A stretch of 32,409 bases of DNA, from contig JACMLT010000160.1 of assembly GCA_014379455.1 (NCBI GenBank), positions 1 through 32,409 on the forward strand. The letters are read 5' to 3'. Source of the DNA: Nitrospiraceae bacterium. GTDB taxonomy: Bacteria > Nitrospirota > Nitrospiria > Nitrospirales > Nitrospiraceae. The notes beneath the pieces were generated by a model. It was not told where the DNA came from. It worked only from the letters and a program-made list of their open reading frames with translations, and ran no database searches. Made by a program: the position numbers and the translations under genes. Shown piece after piece: positions 27,486 to 32,409 of this stretch; the first letter of the stretch is position 1; each line of letters opens with the position of its first letter.

Positions 27486-27575
27486 GCCGGAGTGGCGAAA
27501 TTGGCAGACGCAAGGGACTTAAAATCCCTCGGGCTTAAAAGGCCTGTACCGGTTCGATCCCGGTCTCCGGCACCA
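27486..27575 (+). tRNA. tRNA-Leu (anticodon UAA), CCA encoded
   Basis: The acceptor stem GCCGGAG pairs with CTCCGGC, followed by discriminator A and encoded CCA. The anticodon arm has GGGACTTAAAATCCC with anticodon TAA. A long variable arm and the T arm ACCGG-TTCGATC-CCGGT confirm a class II leucine tRNA of 90 bases. The next base begins an IHF-like coding remnant. Confidence 0.95.
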
Positions 27576-27800
27576 ATCTATGGCTTTGGCAAGTTTACAG
27601 TTCGACGTAAGCGCCCTCGCACAGGACGGAATCCCCGCACGGGCGAGGTCGTGATGATCTCGGCCCGCAGAGTGGTGACCTTTCACCCGAGCCTCCTTTT
27701 CACAACGGAAATGAATTCTGTCCCGGCAGAACAGCAAGAAGCCGTGACGCGCACGAGAGAAGAAGGGCATGCGGCCGAAGGCGAAAGCCTAACTGTATGA
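27576..27800 (+). pseudogene. IHF-alpha/HU-like protein, C-terminal half only
   Basis: Directly after the tRNA CCA, the frame reads [22 protein letters not shown] then [12 protein letters not shown]. This is the DNA-binding beta-arm and C-terminal part of IHF-alpha (E. coli: GFGNFDLRDK, GRNPKTGE, ITARRVVTF). The N-terminal dimerisation helices, about 45 residues, are absent, and no start with a ribosome site exists, so it is a remnant. The frame is open through the tRNA back to an ATG at 27453, but a protein spanning a tRNA is unlikely. A tail of about 30 residues extends past the IHF end, and its TGA overlaps the next ATG. Loss of exactly the part before the tRNA suggests recombination at the tRNA 3' end. 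Confidence 0.75.
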
Positions 27801-28033
27801 GCAAGTCTGTCGAATATCGGGAATACACCATCAGCTCGACCCCGTTGCAACTGTCGGGGAAGGACGAATGGAGGTCGAAGATTAAGGTTTCCTCTGAGCG
27901 GGAAGGGATTGTCGCCGCGGAGCCCTATACAGACGACACCATCCACGCCACGGAAGAGGCCGCTGATACCCATGGGATCAAATTAGGTCAAGCTCTTATC
28001 GACGGAAAGTCCCCGGAATTGTCGGAAGATTAA
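27797..28033 (+). CDS. 78-aa hypothetical protein
   Basis: The product begins [13 protein letters not shown] and contains E-W-R-S-K-I-K-V and [21 protein letters not shown] strand-rich start followed by an E-E-A helix ending in L-I-D-G is seen in many short proteins annotated with a CV_2116-like domain; this is a resemblance only. Its ATG overlaps the stop of the IHF remnant (ATGA), a relic of translational coupling. It is the first of a run of tiny plus-strand genes. Confidence 0.6.
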
Positions 28034-28103: not shown

Positions 28104-28301
28104 GTGATCTGGACGATGCGGGCCCCCACGATGGAGGGCTGGTACTGGTTCAGTGAGCTCGACGGAAGCGACGAGCGCATCGTGAGTGTGTATCATCAGG
28201 GACTCGATAGAAACAAACCCCTGACGGCGAGTGGTGAAAACTTCGCCTTGCTCGATCTTAACGGCCATCGATGGGCTGGACCGATAGAGCGACCGCGGTG
28301 A
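28104..28301 (+). CDS. GWYW/WAGP-family microprotein, copy 1
   Basis: The 65-residue protein has W-T-M-R-A-P-T-M-E-G-W-Y-W-F at the N-terminus and R-W-A-G-P-I-E-R-P at the C-terminus. It shares both ends with the gene at 28476-28682 and the N-terminal half with the relic at 29140. GTG 28104 is supported by the paralogue start (M-x-W-T), although GGAGGA is very close; ATG 28116 is possible. The middle is divergent, with V-S-V-Y-H-Q-G. Family unknown to me. Its TGA overlaps the next GTG. Confidence 0.6.
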   Translation: MIWTMRAPTMEGWYWFSELDGSDERIVSVYHQGLDRNKPLTASGENFALLDLNGHRWAGPIERPR

Positions 28302-28405
28302 GGGACTGTCAACATGAATGGGTCGACGATCAATCATGCATTGAACGTAGGTTCGTGTGTCTGGCATGCGGACAACGATTAGACGCAAAACCCTTACGGC
28401 TCTGA
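28298..28405 (+). CDS. 35-aa zinc-finger-like microprotein
   Basis: A GTG start overlapping the previous stop (GTGA) reads V-R-D-C-Q-H-E-W-V-D-D, then C-I-E-R-R-F-V-C-L-A-C-G-Q-R-L-D. C4/H6 and C21-x2-C24 form a plausible zinc-binding set, and C-x-H ... C-x2-C-G matches the pattern in the gene at 29422. It is short, so coding status rests on overlap and cysteine pattern. Confidence 0.45.
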   Translation: MRDCQHEWVDDQSCIERRFVCLACGQRLDAKPLRL

Positions 28406-28475
28406 TATTCAAGGCAGAACAGCAGTAGGCGTGCCAGCCGATCCCACGCCGCAATCACTCATTGAGGGAATCGAG

Positions 28476-28682
28476 ATGCCCTTGTCCTGGACGACTCAGA
28501 AGCCGACGCAGACGGGTTGGTACTGGTACAGGAAAGATGCTACTGACTCATCCATCCTCTTCTATTGCGGGACTGTGTGGGATCACGTCGTTGATTTTGC
28601 CGGCCTGAATGAACCGGTCGCATTCATGAAGGATCATTTGTTGGAGGGTGAATGGGCCGGACCACTGGAGCCGCCGGAGTAA
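28476..28682 (+). CDS. GWYW/WAGP-family microprotein, copy 2
   Basis: From ATG 28476 (68 aa; GAGGGA eight bases upstream) the protein starts L-S-W-T-T-Q-K-P-T-Q-T-G-W-Y-W-Y-R-K-D and ends G-E-W-A-G-P-L-E-P-P-E. It aligns with copy 1 at both ends. An open frame from GTG 28431 adds 15 residues but does not match the paralogue. Middle: S-I-L-F-Y-C-G-T-V-W. It is followed after two bases by the next gene. Confidence 0.65.
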   Translation: MPLSWTTQKPTQTGWYWYRKDATDSSILFYCGTVWDHVVDFAGLNEPVAFMKDHLLEGEWAGPLEPPE

Positions 28683-28684
28683 CG

Positions 28685-28852
28685 ATGGAAATGACGTGGG
28701 ATAACCTGACGCAGTTTTTTACGTGGGCCGCCCAGCACGGATCGGAGGCTCCCATTGCAGACACCGCAGGGGAAACAATTGTGATTGATGGGGCGATCAC
28801 GAAAGAGGACCTAGATCGTTTCATGACCTCTCACTCGGAACCGCCGACATAA
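28685..28852 (+). CDS. 55-aa hypothetical protein
   Basis: ATG 28685 follows the WAGP copy 2 stop by two bases, with CGGAG upstream. The product is acidic and helical: M-E-M-T-W-D-N-L-T-Q-F-F-T-W-A-A-Q-H-G, then I-V-I-D-G-A-I-T-K-E-D-L-D-R-F-M. No family recognised. Spacing suggests one transcript with copy 2. Confidence 0.5.
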   Translation: MEMTWDNLTQFFTWAAQHGSEAPIADTAGETIVIDGAITKEDLDRFMTSHSEPPT

Positions 28853-28893
28853 TCACAGTTGAAGGGCCTCCAGCCGAAGAGGAGGGCTAGGCC

Positions 28894-29118
28894 GTGCGGA
28901 GGATGAAGAAAAAGGACGGGCATGTTCCCCATGTGATCCACGGCCGAGGGTGTGAGCGGAATTTGATCATTGCTAAATATCTGGCGTTCCCAGACAGCAA
29001 TACCCCGCGCGAATACATCGATGAGATTGTCGATCCCACCTGCCACTCGTTTTCGGTGCGGTGTCCTTGCGGGCTCTACACGGTTTCAGTTAAGAAGCAG
29101 GGGCAGCAGTCTGAGTAA
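28894..29118 (+). CDS. 74-aa hypothetical protein with Cys/His cluster
   Basis: GTG 28894 has GGAGGG eight bases before it. The product has a basic start (R-R-M-K-K-K-D-G-H), a central R-G-C-E-R-N, and the C-terminal cluster D-P-T-C-H-S-F-S-V-R-C-P-C-G-L-Y-T-V, which could bind zinc. Function unknown. It lies in the same direction and run as its tiny neighbours. Confidence 0.55.
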   Translation: MRRMKKKDGHVPHVIHGRGCERNLIIAKYLAFPDSNTPREYIDEIVDPTCHSFSVRCPCGLYTVSVKKQGQQSE

Positions 29119-29139
29119 CCTCTTGTCGGAGGTGGAGGA

Positions 29140-29260
29140 ATGAACTGGACGACCGAACTCCCAACGGCTTCAGGCTATTATGGTGGCGAGAACAGGGGGT
29201 AGGTAAGCATTCCACCCATCAACTAGGGACTTTCCGAGGCCCGTCCTTCTGGCGCGAGTG
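29140..29260 (+). pseudogene. GWYW/WAGP-family relic, frameshifted copy 3
   Basis: ATG 29140 follows a strong GGAGGTGGAGG. The frame reads M-N-W-T-T-E-L-P-T-A-S-G-Y-Y-G-G-E-N and stops at 29202. Adding one base after the second Tyr codon would restore G-Y-Y-W-W-R-E-Q, matching G-W-Y-W-Y-R-K-D of copy 2, and the shifted frame then runs to the TGA at 29258-29260. The C-terminal W-A-G-P block is not found. Confidence 0.55.
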
Positions 29261-29272
29261 AAATACTGGGGC

Positions 29273-29425
29273 ATGGTCTGCCCACAATGTCATGGTTACG
29301 ATATCGCTCCCTTCCAATTCCTCTACGTCGACGATCTGATAACACTCCCATTGCCCATGTGGGATTGTCTCAATCCAACCTGTCTGCATCGTTGGTTCGA
29401 GCAAACTCTTGACGAGGTCGCATGA
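29273..29425 (+). CDS. 50-aa zinc-ribbon-like protein
   Basis: ATG 29273 opens M-V-C-P-Q-C-H-G-Y-D-I, then M-W-D-C-L-N-P-T-C-L-H-R-W-F. The C-x2-C and C-x4-C pairs suggest a zinc ribbon. Its TGA overlaps the ATG of the following gene (ATGA). A longer start at GTG 29258 is possible. No good ribosome site is seen. An antisense frame covering it lacks such features. Confidence 0.55.
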   Translation: MVCPQCHGYDIAPFQFLYVDDLITLPLPMWDCLNPTCLHRWFEQTLDEVA

Positions 29426-29580
29426 CCAAGTCTCAAGCCATCGACCTTCAAGCAAAGTGGAAACAGCAAGATCCTCCACCACTCTGTGAACATCTCAAAG
29501 TCGAATCGGAACGGAACGTAGACGGTGATGTGACAGACCACAATCACTGCACCGTCTGTGGGCAGTCAGTCCCCCGCTAA
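29422..29580 (+). CDS. 52-aa zinc-binding-type small protein
   Basis: The product reads K-W-K-Q-Q-D-P-P-P-L-C-E-H-L-K-V-E-S-E-R, then H-N-H-C-T-V-C-G-Q-S-V-P-R. C-x-H upstream and C-x2-C-G downstream give a compact zinc site. Small proteins with C-E/T-H-L ... C-x2-C-G-E/Q-S-V are common unnamed genes in environmental bacteria. GAGG lies six bases before the ATG, which overlaps the previous stop. It is the last gene before the terminator at 29668. Confidence 0.6.
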   Translation: MTKSQAIDLQAKWKQQDPPPLCEHLKVESERNVDGDVTDHNHCTVCGQSVPR

Positions 29581-29924: not shown

Positions 29925-29997
29925 GAGCTAACATGAACCCCGTCGACGTTCGCATAATCCAGAGGGTGGACACGGTCTTCTCTTGCCGCAGACGACG

Positions 29998-31713
29998 ATG
30001 CCTACACACCTGAATCTTCTTCTGCTTGAAGACTCGTTGAATGATGCGGAGCTGATGCTCGAGGCGCTCCGTGATGCAGGATTTGCGCTGACCTTCCGCC
30101 ATGTCGATTCGAAAGCCGACTACCTTCGCGCACTCGACCATCCTCCGGATCTCATTCTGTCCGATTTCTCCATGCCGCAATTCACGGCGCACCACGCGTT
30201 GCAGATCCTACAAGAGCGGGGACTCACTATTCCGTTTATTGTCGTGTCGGGCTGCATCGGGGAGGAGATGGCGGTGGAATGTATGAGGGCGGGGGCCACC
30301 GACTATCTGCTGAAAGACCGCCTGGGCCGTCTTGGGCATGCTGTCTCCCAGGCGCTCGATCGCAAGCGGTTACTCGAAGAGAAGCGGCAAGCTGAGCAGC
30401 GCCTGGCGCTAGAAACGTATCACGACGCGCTCACCGGCCTTCCCAATCGCACATTGTTTCTGGACCGGCTGGATCGGGTGTACCAGCAGACCCGGCGTCA
30501 ACCGAGCCATCTGTTTGCCCTGGCGTATCTCCATCTGGACGGGTTCCTCGTGGTCCATGACGGCGTAGGACCGGAGGCGGCGGATCGCCTGCTGATTGAA
30601 GTCAGTCAACGGATGCTGCGCCGCGTGCGCTCAGCGGACACGGTGGCCCGAATGGAAGGGTACGAGTTTGCGTTCCTGCTCGACAACCTAAAGGTCGCCG
30701 GCAATGCGATGCGCGTGGCTGATCGTCTCCAGCAGGAATTTGCCACACCGTTTACCATCGACGGGCAAGAGATCGTGCTCACGGCTAGCATGGGTCTGAC
30801 GTGCTGCGCTCCCAGCTATGAAGGCGGCGACCAGCTGCTGCGCGATGCCACGACTGCCATGCATCAGGCCAAAACCTCCGGCCGGAGGGGGTTCGTGATG
30901 TTCGATCCGGTCATGCATGAGCACGCCATGGCCCGCTTGAAACTGGAAGGCGAGCTGCGCCATGCACTGGAGCGGCAGGAGTTCCAGCTGGCGTATCAGC
31001 CCATTGTGGCCTTAAAGTCCGGTCAGATTGTCGGGTTAGAGGCGCTGCTGCGCTGGGCGCATCCGGAGTATGGGCTCACCCGGCCGGATGGGTTCCTGGA
31101 GATTGCCACGGACCTGGGCCTGATGCCGAAGATCGGCGAGTGGAGCCTCCGCGAGGCCTGCCGGCAGCTGACGGTGTGGCAGGCCGAGTGTCCGCAGGTT
31201 CGTCCGCTGACCGTAAGCGTGAATTTTGCGGTCCGGCATTTCGTGGACGCCGATCTAGCGGCGCTCATTCAGCAGACGCTCCAGGACACCGGCCTGGATC
31301 CGTCGAGTCTGAAGATCGAAATCACCGAGTCGGACATGATGCAGCATCCTGAAGCGGTCACCGCGGTGCTGCAGCAACTCGCCGCGCAGCGAGTCCAAAC
31401 CTGCCTGGACGATTTCGGCACGGGGTATTCGTCCTTAAGCCATCTCCATCAATTGCCGATTGCGTTCTTGAAGATTGACCAGTCGTTCGTCCGGAGGCTG
31501 GGGGCCGATGACGATGCGCTCGCCATCGTGAAGACCATCATCGTCCTCGCGCATCAGCTGGGGCGGCAGGTGATCGCCGAAGGGGTGGAAACGGCCGACC
31601 AGCTGACGATCCTCCGCGCGCTCGGATGCGAGTATGGGCAAGGCTATTTCTTTGCGAAGCCGTTGCCCTGCGCGGACGTGTCCTCCCTTCTGGCATCAAG
31701 CCGCCGCTGGTAA
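29998..31713 (+). CDS. REC-GGDEF-EAL response regulator, degenerate GGDEF
   Basis: This 571-residue protein (from ATG 29998; TTG 29983 would add five residues) links a receiver to c-di-GMP turnover. The receiver (1-120) has L-L-L-L-E-D, D56 in L-I-L-S-D-F-S-M-P, and K in Y-L-L-K-D. The GGDEF domain (about 135-300) starts D-A-L-T-G-L-P-N-R, but the signature reads E-G-Y-E-F (220-224) in place of GGDEF, so cyclase activity is not expected. The EAL domain is intact: E348-A-L-L-R-W, E-I-T-E-S-D, D-D-F-G-T-G-Y-S-S-L, K-I-D-Q-S-F-V and A-E-G-V-E-T, so it should hydrolyse c-di-GMP, perhaps gated by phosphorylation. A PilZ gene follows 100 bp later. No clear ribosome site. Confidence 0.92.
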   Translation: MPTHLNLLLLEDSLNDAELMLEALRDAGFALTFRHVDSKADYLRALDHPPDLILSDFSMPQFTAHHALQILQERGLTIPFIVVSGCIGEEMAVECMRAGATDYLLKDRLGRLGHAVSQALDRKRLLEEKRQAEQRLALETYHDALTGLPNRTLFLDRLDRVYQQTRRQPSHLFALAYLHLDGFLVVHDGVGPEAADRLLIEVSQRMLRRVRSADTVARMEGYEFAFLLDNLKVAGNAMRVADRLQQEFATPFTIDGQEIVLTASMGLTCCAPSYEGGDQLLRDATTAMHQAKTSGRRGFVMFDPVMHEHAMARLKLEGELRHALERQEFQLAYQPIVALKSGQIVGLEALLRWAHPEYGLTRPDGFLEIATDLGLMPKIGEWSLREACRQLTVWQAECPQVRPLTVSVNFAVRHFVDADLAALIQQTLQDTGLDPSSLKIEITESDMMQHPEAVTAVLQQLAAQRVQTCLDDFGTGYSSLSHLHQLPIAFLKIDQSFVRRLGADDDALAIVKTIIVLAHQLGRQVIAEGVETADQLTILRALGCEYGQGYFFAKPLPCADVSSLLASSRRW

Positions 31714-31814: not shown

Positions 31815-32182
31815 ATGAGCATGAAGGACCGCAGTGCCCGCCGTGTTCGAACCTCGTGCAGGCTCGCCTATGCGGGGGTCACCGAAGATCTTGAGGGTGA
31901 GGCGCAAACGATTGACCTGTCCTTCCGGGGTTGTCGGGCGGTCTGTCAATCGCAATCGCCCGTAGGAGCCAAACTCCACGTGTCCGTCTATCTGCCCGAC
32001 TTGGAGTGCGCGCTCTCGTGGAATTGGCGGTCGTTCGATGGGTCAGACAGACAGTAATCGGCCTGCAGTTTTGTTCCGTAACCTCCCCCCACCGGGAGCG
32101 ATTGCAAGACTGGATTATGACAGCACCCTATGGCAACTCGCAACAAGTTCGCCCGACACCACGCCCAGTAGTCTTTCGGTAG
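31815..32182 (+). pseudogene. PilZ-domain protein, apparent one-base frameshift
   Basis: PilZ domains bind c-di-GMP. The first frame has R-S-A-R-R-V-R (R-x3-R) and D-L-S-F-R-G (D-x-S-x2-G), the two binding motifs, then V-S-V-Y-L-P-D-L-E-C-A-L and ends at 32057. The conserved continuation, V-E-L-A-V-V-R-W-V-R-Q-T-V-I-G-L-Q-F, lies in the next frame and runs to 32182 through E-R-L-Q-D-W-I. Adding one base at CTCTC (32013-32017) would join them as A-L-L-V-E-L-A-V. Either a recent pseudogene, a sequencing error, or programmed slippage (no classic slippery site seen). GGGAG lies 11 bases before ATG 31815. Placement beside an EAL protein fits c-di-GMP sensing. Confidence 0.75.
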
Positions 32183-32328
32183 GACCGGCAGGCCCCCATT
32201 CGACCCGCGAGTCTTGCGCAATCGGATCTGGCTGGCGGGCCAGCTCTCCCGGCTGGGGCTGAATTGTGGCTAAACTGTCGCGAAACTACCCAGCGGGGAG
32301 AGAGACTATCGTTTCACGGGTTCATTTG

Positions 32329-32351
32329 AGGTCATCCCTGGGGCCTTTTTT
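32329..32351 (+). terminator. Weak terminator-like hairpin near window end
   Basis: AGGTC (32329-32333) pairs with GGCCT (32342-32346, one G-U), followed by TTTTT. It may end the PilZ transcript. The 32183-32409 interval otherwise shows no gene I can support. Confidence 0.35.
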
Positions 32352-32409
32352 CAGCAGGTTCCGGCTCATTCTCCTCGGATAGGTTGAGATGTGCGTCTAT
32401 AGTCTCTGA

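Follow-up and report, generated by a model that had tools for sequence, protein, structure and literature searches.

Factors for anti-defence and host takeover come in large part from small accessory proteins of phages, most of which are unannotated. Among the described families that come closest to the proteins reported here, DUF551 is described as a portable domain of Ea22 variants, YfdS and MazZ (PMC10834534), Lar restriction alleviation proteins (PF14354) contain a zinc-binding CPxCG...W-N domain, and the CV_2116 type was first described from a Chromobacterium prophage (PMC3397530).

The window analysed here, i.e., the whole stretch of 32,409 nucleotides, represents contig C225 of a Nitrospira-type draft genome of the Nitrospiraceae (G000) that comprises 384 contigs and 3.73 Mb. 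A preliminary description of this DNA had proposed a new family of microproteins, aromatic and conserved at both ends but variable in between, present in three copies, one of them decaying, at a tRNA-linked site. The genes of this array and their surroundings are located at the following positions of the window:

27486-27575, plus strand: tRNA-Leu(UAA) (ARAGORN; Rfam RF00005), left boundary of the island and probable integration site
27797-28033, plus strand: CV_2116/DUF6566 domain protein, 78 aa (NCBIfam NF046097, Pfam PF20204)
28104-28301 including the stop codon (28104-28298 coding), plus strand: GWYW-WAGP copy 1, 65 aa, GTG start
28476-28682 including the stop codon (28476-28679 coding), plus strand: GWYW-WAGP copy 2, 68 aa, counted from the homologous ATG
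28685-28852, plus strand: companion gene, 55 aa (MEMTWDNLTQFFTWAAQHG...), directly 3′ of copy 2, recognised by DNA identity (~90%, including the WAGP codons of copy 2) to contigs C200 and C118 of genome G005
28894-29118, plus strand: small ORF, 74 aa, with a Cys-rich C-terminus, no family match
29140-29261, plus strand: GWYW copy 3, broken according to its sequence, with 20 N-terminal codons followed by a stop codon and the rest one base out of frame
29258-29425, plus strand: small ORF, 55 aa, with Cys pairs, no family match
29422-29580, plus strand: small ORF, 52 aa, with a weak treble-clef resemblance (PF09889, E 0.007, below the cut-off)
29983-31713, plus strand: response regulator-GGDEF-EAL protein (Pfam PF00072, PF00990, PF00563), within the inferred island boundaries
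32064-32408, no strand: contig end, dovetail overlap with G000:C343:1-345 (97% over 345 bp)

Results

Two intact copies and one remnant

Copies 1 and 2 are homologous (BLASTP: 36 bits, E 9e-10, 30% identity), and the motifs W-T-x3-P-T-x2-G-W-Y-W and W-A-G-P-[IL]-E-x-P are aligned between them. Both contain the invariant W, P and G, the near-invariant G-W-Y-W and the C-terminal W-x-G-P by which the GWYW-WAGP family is defined. The open frame of copy 2 has its first GTG at position 28431 (28431-28682), and the ATG at position 28476 corresponds to the homologous start. A family HMM, which includes copies 1 and 2 among its sequences and leaves copy 3 out, was run against the six-frame translation of the window (1,299 segments). 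We obtained exactly three significant matches, all of them in this array, namely copy 1 (E 1e-19), copy 2 (E 1e-17) and, with an E value of 7e-4, the N-terminus of copy 3, whereas the best of the other segments had an E value of 3. The proposed family of microproteins, in which the aromatic ends are conserved and the core varies, is thereby borne out.

The reading frame of copy 3 begins at position 29140 with M-N-W-T-T-E-L-P-T-A-S-G-Y-Y, followed by G-G-E-N-R-G and a stop codon (29200-29202). Shifted by one base, it goes on as WWREQGVGKHSTHQLGTFRGPSFWRE up to a stop codon at 29259-29261, and this out-of-frame continuation possibly provides an F-R-G-P end. The C-terminal half of copy 3 gave no significant match to the family HMM on its own. 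Copy 3 is thus an N-terminal remnant with a broken frame, in line with the dying copy that had been suspected.

Comparison of copy 1 with its ortholog in genome G005 yielded a dN of 0.058 and a dS of 0.478 (dN/dS 0.12), and for copy 2 the dN/dS was 0.18 over 45 codons. These ratios indicate purifying selection at the protein level on both intact copies, and the earlier assumption that the copies are under some selection holds for these two.

Relatives in tailed phages

The domain W-T-x3-P-T-x2-G-W-Y-W ... [WF]-x-G-P-[IL]-x-x-P was found in many tailed-phage contigs. Viral contigs were scanned for GEWAGPI codons and for W-x4-P-x3-G-W-Y-W codons, and both scans yielded many small ORFs that contain both motif ends. 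The latter pattern gave at least 120 matches as compared to 29 with the spacing off by one; these 29 loci (L090-L118) were discarded and serve as a background count only. Among the matches listed, 24 of the 106 decoded phage ORFs, a share of which is due to chance, also contain W-[ATSRVC]-G-P, and many others end with W-Y-G-P, W-W-G-P, F-A-G-P or similar. A profile of 17 Nitrospira sequences matched a phage-only profile with a probability of 99.7% (E 3.1e-27), as compared to under 1% in the control with shuffled columns. In five phage ORFs among the matches listed, which represent a minority, the N-terminus consists of a Lar_restr_allev domain; for four of these the score exceeds the Pfam cut-off. 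Searching annotated phages and plasmids with the copies by tblastn gave weak matches only; among these, one protein from a Caballeronia plasmid and one from a Microcystis phage later scored as family members. On one phage-type contig (L227:4389-6098), three GWYW genes lie close together, similar to the multi-copy layout of the window.

Neither the window copies nor the 17 + 51 family members had a usable match in Pfam, PHROGs or NCBIfam; the best PHROG match was phrog_18026 (unknown function; three members, E 0.0037 or worse). Likewise, PADLOC gave no match for the GWYW genes, and in the literature search the motif was not found described in a phage-protein sense. We consider it nearly certain that the window proteins are members of an uncatalogued small-protein family of tailed phages. 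The family is new in that it is unnamed and covered by no curated model, not in the sense of being confined to Nitrospira, as homologs are widespread in tailed phages and in Nitrospiraceae-type genomes.

The array had originally been attributed to a local triplication. Among the matches listed, the closest phage relative of copy 1 is L146 (48%, 55 bits) and that of copy 2 is L127 (45%, 57 bits), and in both contigs a gpA-type terminase gene is located within one gene of the GWYW member. The two copies resemble one another less (30%, 36 bits) than each resembles its own phage relative, so that these values lend no support to a local triplication. Resolution of the tree is poor, and a topology holding copies 1 and 2 together is not rejected (AU p 0.23). 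A simpler assumption, which these comparisons favour and do not prove, is that phage-type members arrived independently.

Distribution in Nitrospiraceae and a core ortholog beside hrpB

Matches were present in 25 of the 32 Nitrospira-genus genomes, with up to seven per genome. A profile search across the phylum matched 86 of 296 genomes. These are 73 of the 79 genomes from the family to which the window belongs and 13 of the 19 from a sister family within that order; in the rest of this sample, outside the two families, no profile match was obtained. In the sister-family genomes L317 and L318, the GWYW domain is preceded by a helical N-terminal extension of ~40 residues and is located in a different gene neighbourhood.

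Most of the phylum matches belong to one single-copy ortholog group ('GLAHEADPFIVQVDEVGQFQWPDGG...KGEWAGPI') that is separate from the window copies and has a dN/dS of about 0.09. In 24 of the 30 distinct genomes examined, this core ortholog is divergent from hrpB at a distance of 86-355 bp, and its other flank is often occupied by a DEAD-box helicase gene. In the window's own genome it is found between the same two helicase genes (DEAD-box, hrpB) at G000:C238:2262-2423 (L348). Here, it is broken by an internal stop codon and a shifted C-terminus, provided that neither is an artefact of draft assembly; in nearly all relatives it is intact. As the core ortholog is stably kept on the chromosome of nearly every Nitrospiraceae-type genome, at least one GWYW-WAGP member is useful to the host outside mobile DNA.

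Mosaic DNA around copy 2

The companion gene and the DNA 5′ of it, as far as the GEWAGP codons of copy 2, are ~85-97% identical to G005:C200 and C118, whereas in the same comparison the GWYW core just upstream is at background identity (20-40%) and the N-terminal codons are intermediate. In G005:C200 and C118 the companion gene lies downstream of a different GWYW gene in each, and in G000:C172 it occurs as a solo copy without a GWYW gene. This distribution of identities indicates that the core was replaced, with the tail and the downstream gene being kept, which may reflect recombination at the conserved ends or another history.

Near-identical DNA of the companion gene (M-T-W-[ED]-N-L-T...) was observed at window positions 28644-28852, L042:6002-6204, L044:5702-5904 and L349 ~1337-1515. 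In addition, a 47-bp piece of the copy 2 core (window 28600-28646) is present without a GWYW gene in two relatives (L049:5756-5802 and L050:3636-3682) with 91-94% identity.

The tRNA-Leu(UAA) island

The gene at 27797, located between the tRNA and copy 1, exceeds the cut-offs of both models that recognise it (NF046097, 72.9 bits, cut-off 58; PF20204, 37.4 bits, cut-off 26.7), and DNA matching it at ~77% adjoins GWYW genes in G005:C114 and G013:C55. Three more tiny ORFs with Cys pairs and without a family lie in the same array (window 28894-29580), and for the last of these, at 29422-29580, diverged DNA copies are present elsewhere in G000 and in relatives.

No direct repeat of the tRNA end was found inside the window. 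Beyond the window end, on the overlapping contig, C343:358-415 is a 58-bp copy of the 3′ part of tRNA-Leu(UAA) with 83% identity, followed by a PilZ-type backbone gene that in G004 directly follows tRNA-Leu. The island extends over ~4.9 kb from tRNA-Leu(UAA) to the repeat on C343, a length that rests on joining two contigs of one draft genome, and contains the DUF6566 gene, the GWYW genes, the small Cys-containing ORFs and the response regulator-GGDEF-EAL gene. No integrase or structural phage gene was found among the window ORFs of the island, and Rfam detected only the tRNA in the window. The tRNA linkage noted at the outset is confirmed by the tRNA gene itself, by the repeat of its 3′-end on the adjoining contig and by the backbone that resumes thereafter. 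An insert of 6.3 kb at the same tRNA-Leu in G009 (L290:1028-7459) encodes an integrase and is bounded by 61 bp that duplicate the tRNA 3′ end, which marks this site as a hotspot. Moreover, beside tRNA-Thr in G005, another GWYW gene together with the same companion gene is flanked by a tail protein gene on one side and two integrases on the other.

Predicted structure

The AlphaFold2 model of copy 1, calculated with 50 relatives, reached a pLDDT of 85.5 and a pTM of 0.73 and comprises strands at residues 12-17, 24-31, 40-42 and 56-61 and one short helix at residues 49-52. The model of copy 2 is less certain (pLDDT 75.6, pTM 0.59). The predicted fold is a small, mostly beta domain. When viral models were searched with Foldseek, a restriction alleviation protein ranked first among the 50 listed matches (E 0.008 at a probability of 1.00), and 11 of these 50 are named DUF551 (E 0.09-1.5, TM 0.38-0.55). 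Searches of the PDB with Foldseek and VIA-align returned nothing usable, with no Foldseek E value below 1. As to the SH3-like fold considered in the preliminary description, the PDB matches reached a VIA-align Z of at most 4.5 against the mostly beta model.

Discussion

We propose that a phage-derived family of small beta proteins is carried as cargo of a remnant element at tRNA-Leu(UAA) and acts as a portable protein-binding adaptor, a statement to which, as a whole, we assign a probability of roughly 0.55. A remnant integrative element would have entered at tRNA-Leu(UAA) with the GWYW genes as accessory cargo, and would have kept two of them intact and constrained and one broken. The conserved aromatic N- and C-terminal strands would build a small, tryptophan-rich beta scaffold of about 65-75 aa, and the variable middle may contact a particular host or phage partner, which the protein could tune or block during infection or lysogeny, plausibly in counter-defence. 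This proposal draws directly on the family identity, the phage distribution, the island setting, the purifying selection and the beta-rich prediction; partner binding and an anti-defence role are what we infer beyond these. Arguing against it are the absence of an integrase and of structural phage genes from the window ORFs of the island, the weakness of the structural matches (best viral E 0.008), the chromosomal core ortholog beside hrpB, the lack of a PADLOC match and the small share of Lar fusions among the phage ORFs. Because of the Lar fusions, restriction or another defence is the leading guess for the role, and an anti-defence function as such is put forward tentatively. It is also conceivable, at odds that we place well below even, that the proteins form a distinct phage effector-adaptor family, in which the core is swapped between conserved ends and the partner gene is kept, and of which one lineage was domesticated beside hrpB in the common ancestor of the Nitrospirales.

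Very short ORFs in mosaic DNA, with a third copy that is broken, might be taken for spurious frames whose shared ends are due to chance or to a DNA repeat read through. We regard this as hardly credible, given the family HMM E values of 1e-17 to 1e-19, the matches in 25 of 32 genus genomes and the same domain across hundreds of kilobases of unrelated phage contigs, and it is refuted by the dN/dS values (0.09-0.18) together with the profile comparison. In particular, a chance match of both ends, which had been named beforehand as evidence that would count against the family, was not found (99.7%, E 3e-27). The single-copy ortholog in 73 of 79 same-family and 13 of 19 sister-family genomes, its divergent position relative to hrpB in 24 of 30 genomes with a dN/dS of 0.09 and the presence of up to seven members per genome would agree with a Nitrospira housekeeping family that was duplicated locally and spread in the genome, the phage copies being taken from hosts. 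However, diversity is far greater in phages, with hosts from many environments, copies 1 and 2 resemble phage proteins more closely than they resemble one another or the core ortholog, and accessory copies adjoin integrases and tail genes, so that we judge a housekeeping origin to be rather unlikely. The immunity-type fold that had been suggested found no support, since neither a linked toxin nor a known immunity family was found with PADLOC, Pfam and NCBIfam, a result that refers to known families only. The phage members occur alone or fused to Lar-type zinc domains and not to toxins. Small immunity proteins or partners of toxin-antitoxin systems are therefore quite improbable, although the small size, the mobile setting, the arrays of variable small genes and the core replacement between conserved ends would suit them.

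The proteins could also have diverged from within DUF551 (PF04448), a portable domain that lambdoid phage proteins such as the Ea22 variants, YfdS and MazZ carry at their C-terminus. We deem this possible, with the greater weight against it. Size and layout are the same (N-terminal W, then P, a strand and, towards the C-terminus, a W-x-P-type motif), and of the 50 viral matches that Foldseek listed, 11 bear this name, with a TM of up to 0.55. For the phage protein L346 the two HMMs give equal scores (E 0.0011 and 0.0012), and in L187 a GWYW domain is combined with a C-terminus resembling DUF551. On the other hand, 0 of the 17 + 51 members match PF04448 (cut-off 22 bits) even at E 10, the profile-profile probability obtained with hhalign is under 1%, with a small reference set of 13 DUF551 sequences, and PF04448 has no match in the 32 Nitrospira-genus genomes, including the window's, while it does match in E. 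coli. Membership in DUF551 was rejected on the Pfam model and the profile-profile comparison.

With the phage-derived adaptor as our preferred reading, the analysis provides a definition of the family, a model of its structure and a question about its partner that can be tested. The domain is abundant in environmental phages and absent from the models of Pfam, PHROGs and NCBIfam; it is repeatedly joined to a restriction-alleviation-type domain, and it has a vertically kept chromosomal ortholog in one group of nitrifying bacteria.

The island resembles tRNA-integrated genomic islands in that a tRNA gene and a direct repeat of its 3′-end enclose accessory genes, and differs from them in containing no integrase and in having its right end on another contig. 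The CV_2116/DUF6566 protein and the GWYW copies share their small size, their link to phages and the same island, but are unrelated in sequence and family. Pfam finds no Lar_restr_allev domain in the window copies, and their membership in this family was rejected. The likeness to Lar concerns those phage proteins in which a Lar-like domain is followed by a GWYW domain; the window copies are devoid of the zinc-finger part and match only the C-terminal add-on. As the weak likeness in predicted fold to DUF551 comes without confirmation by sequence, the GWYW-WAGP domain is best described as working like DUF551, and perhaps being distantly related to it, rather than as a member of it. The two have in common their size, the phage setting, the use as a C-terminal add-on, the N-terminal W and P, the C-terminal W-x-P and, as far as the weak Foldseek matches go, a similar predicted fold, and they are distinguished by the C-terminal motif, which is W-A-G-P-[IL]-x-x-P in the GWYW-WAGP proteins and T-H-W-M-P-L-P-x-P-P in DUF551.
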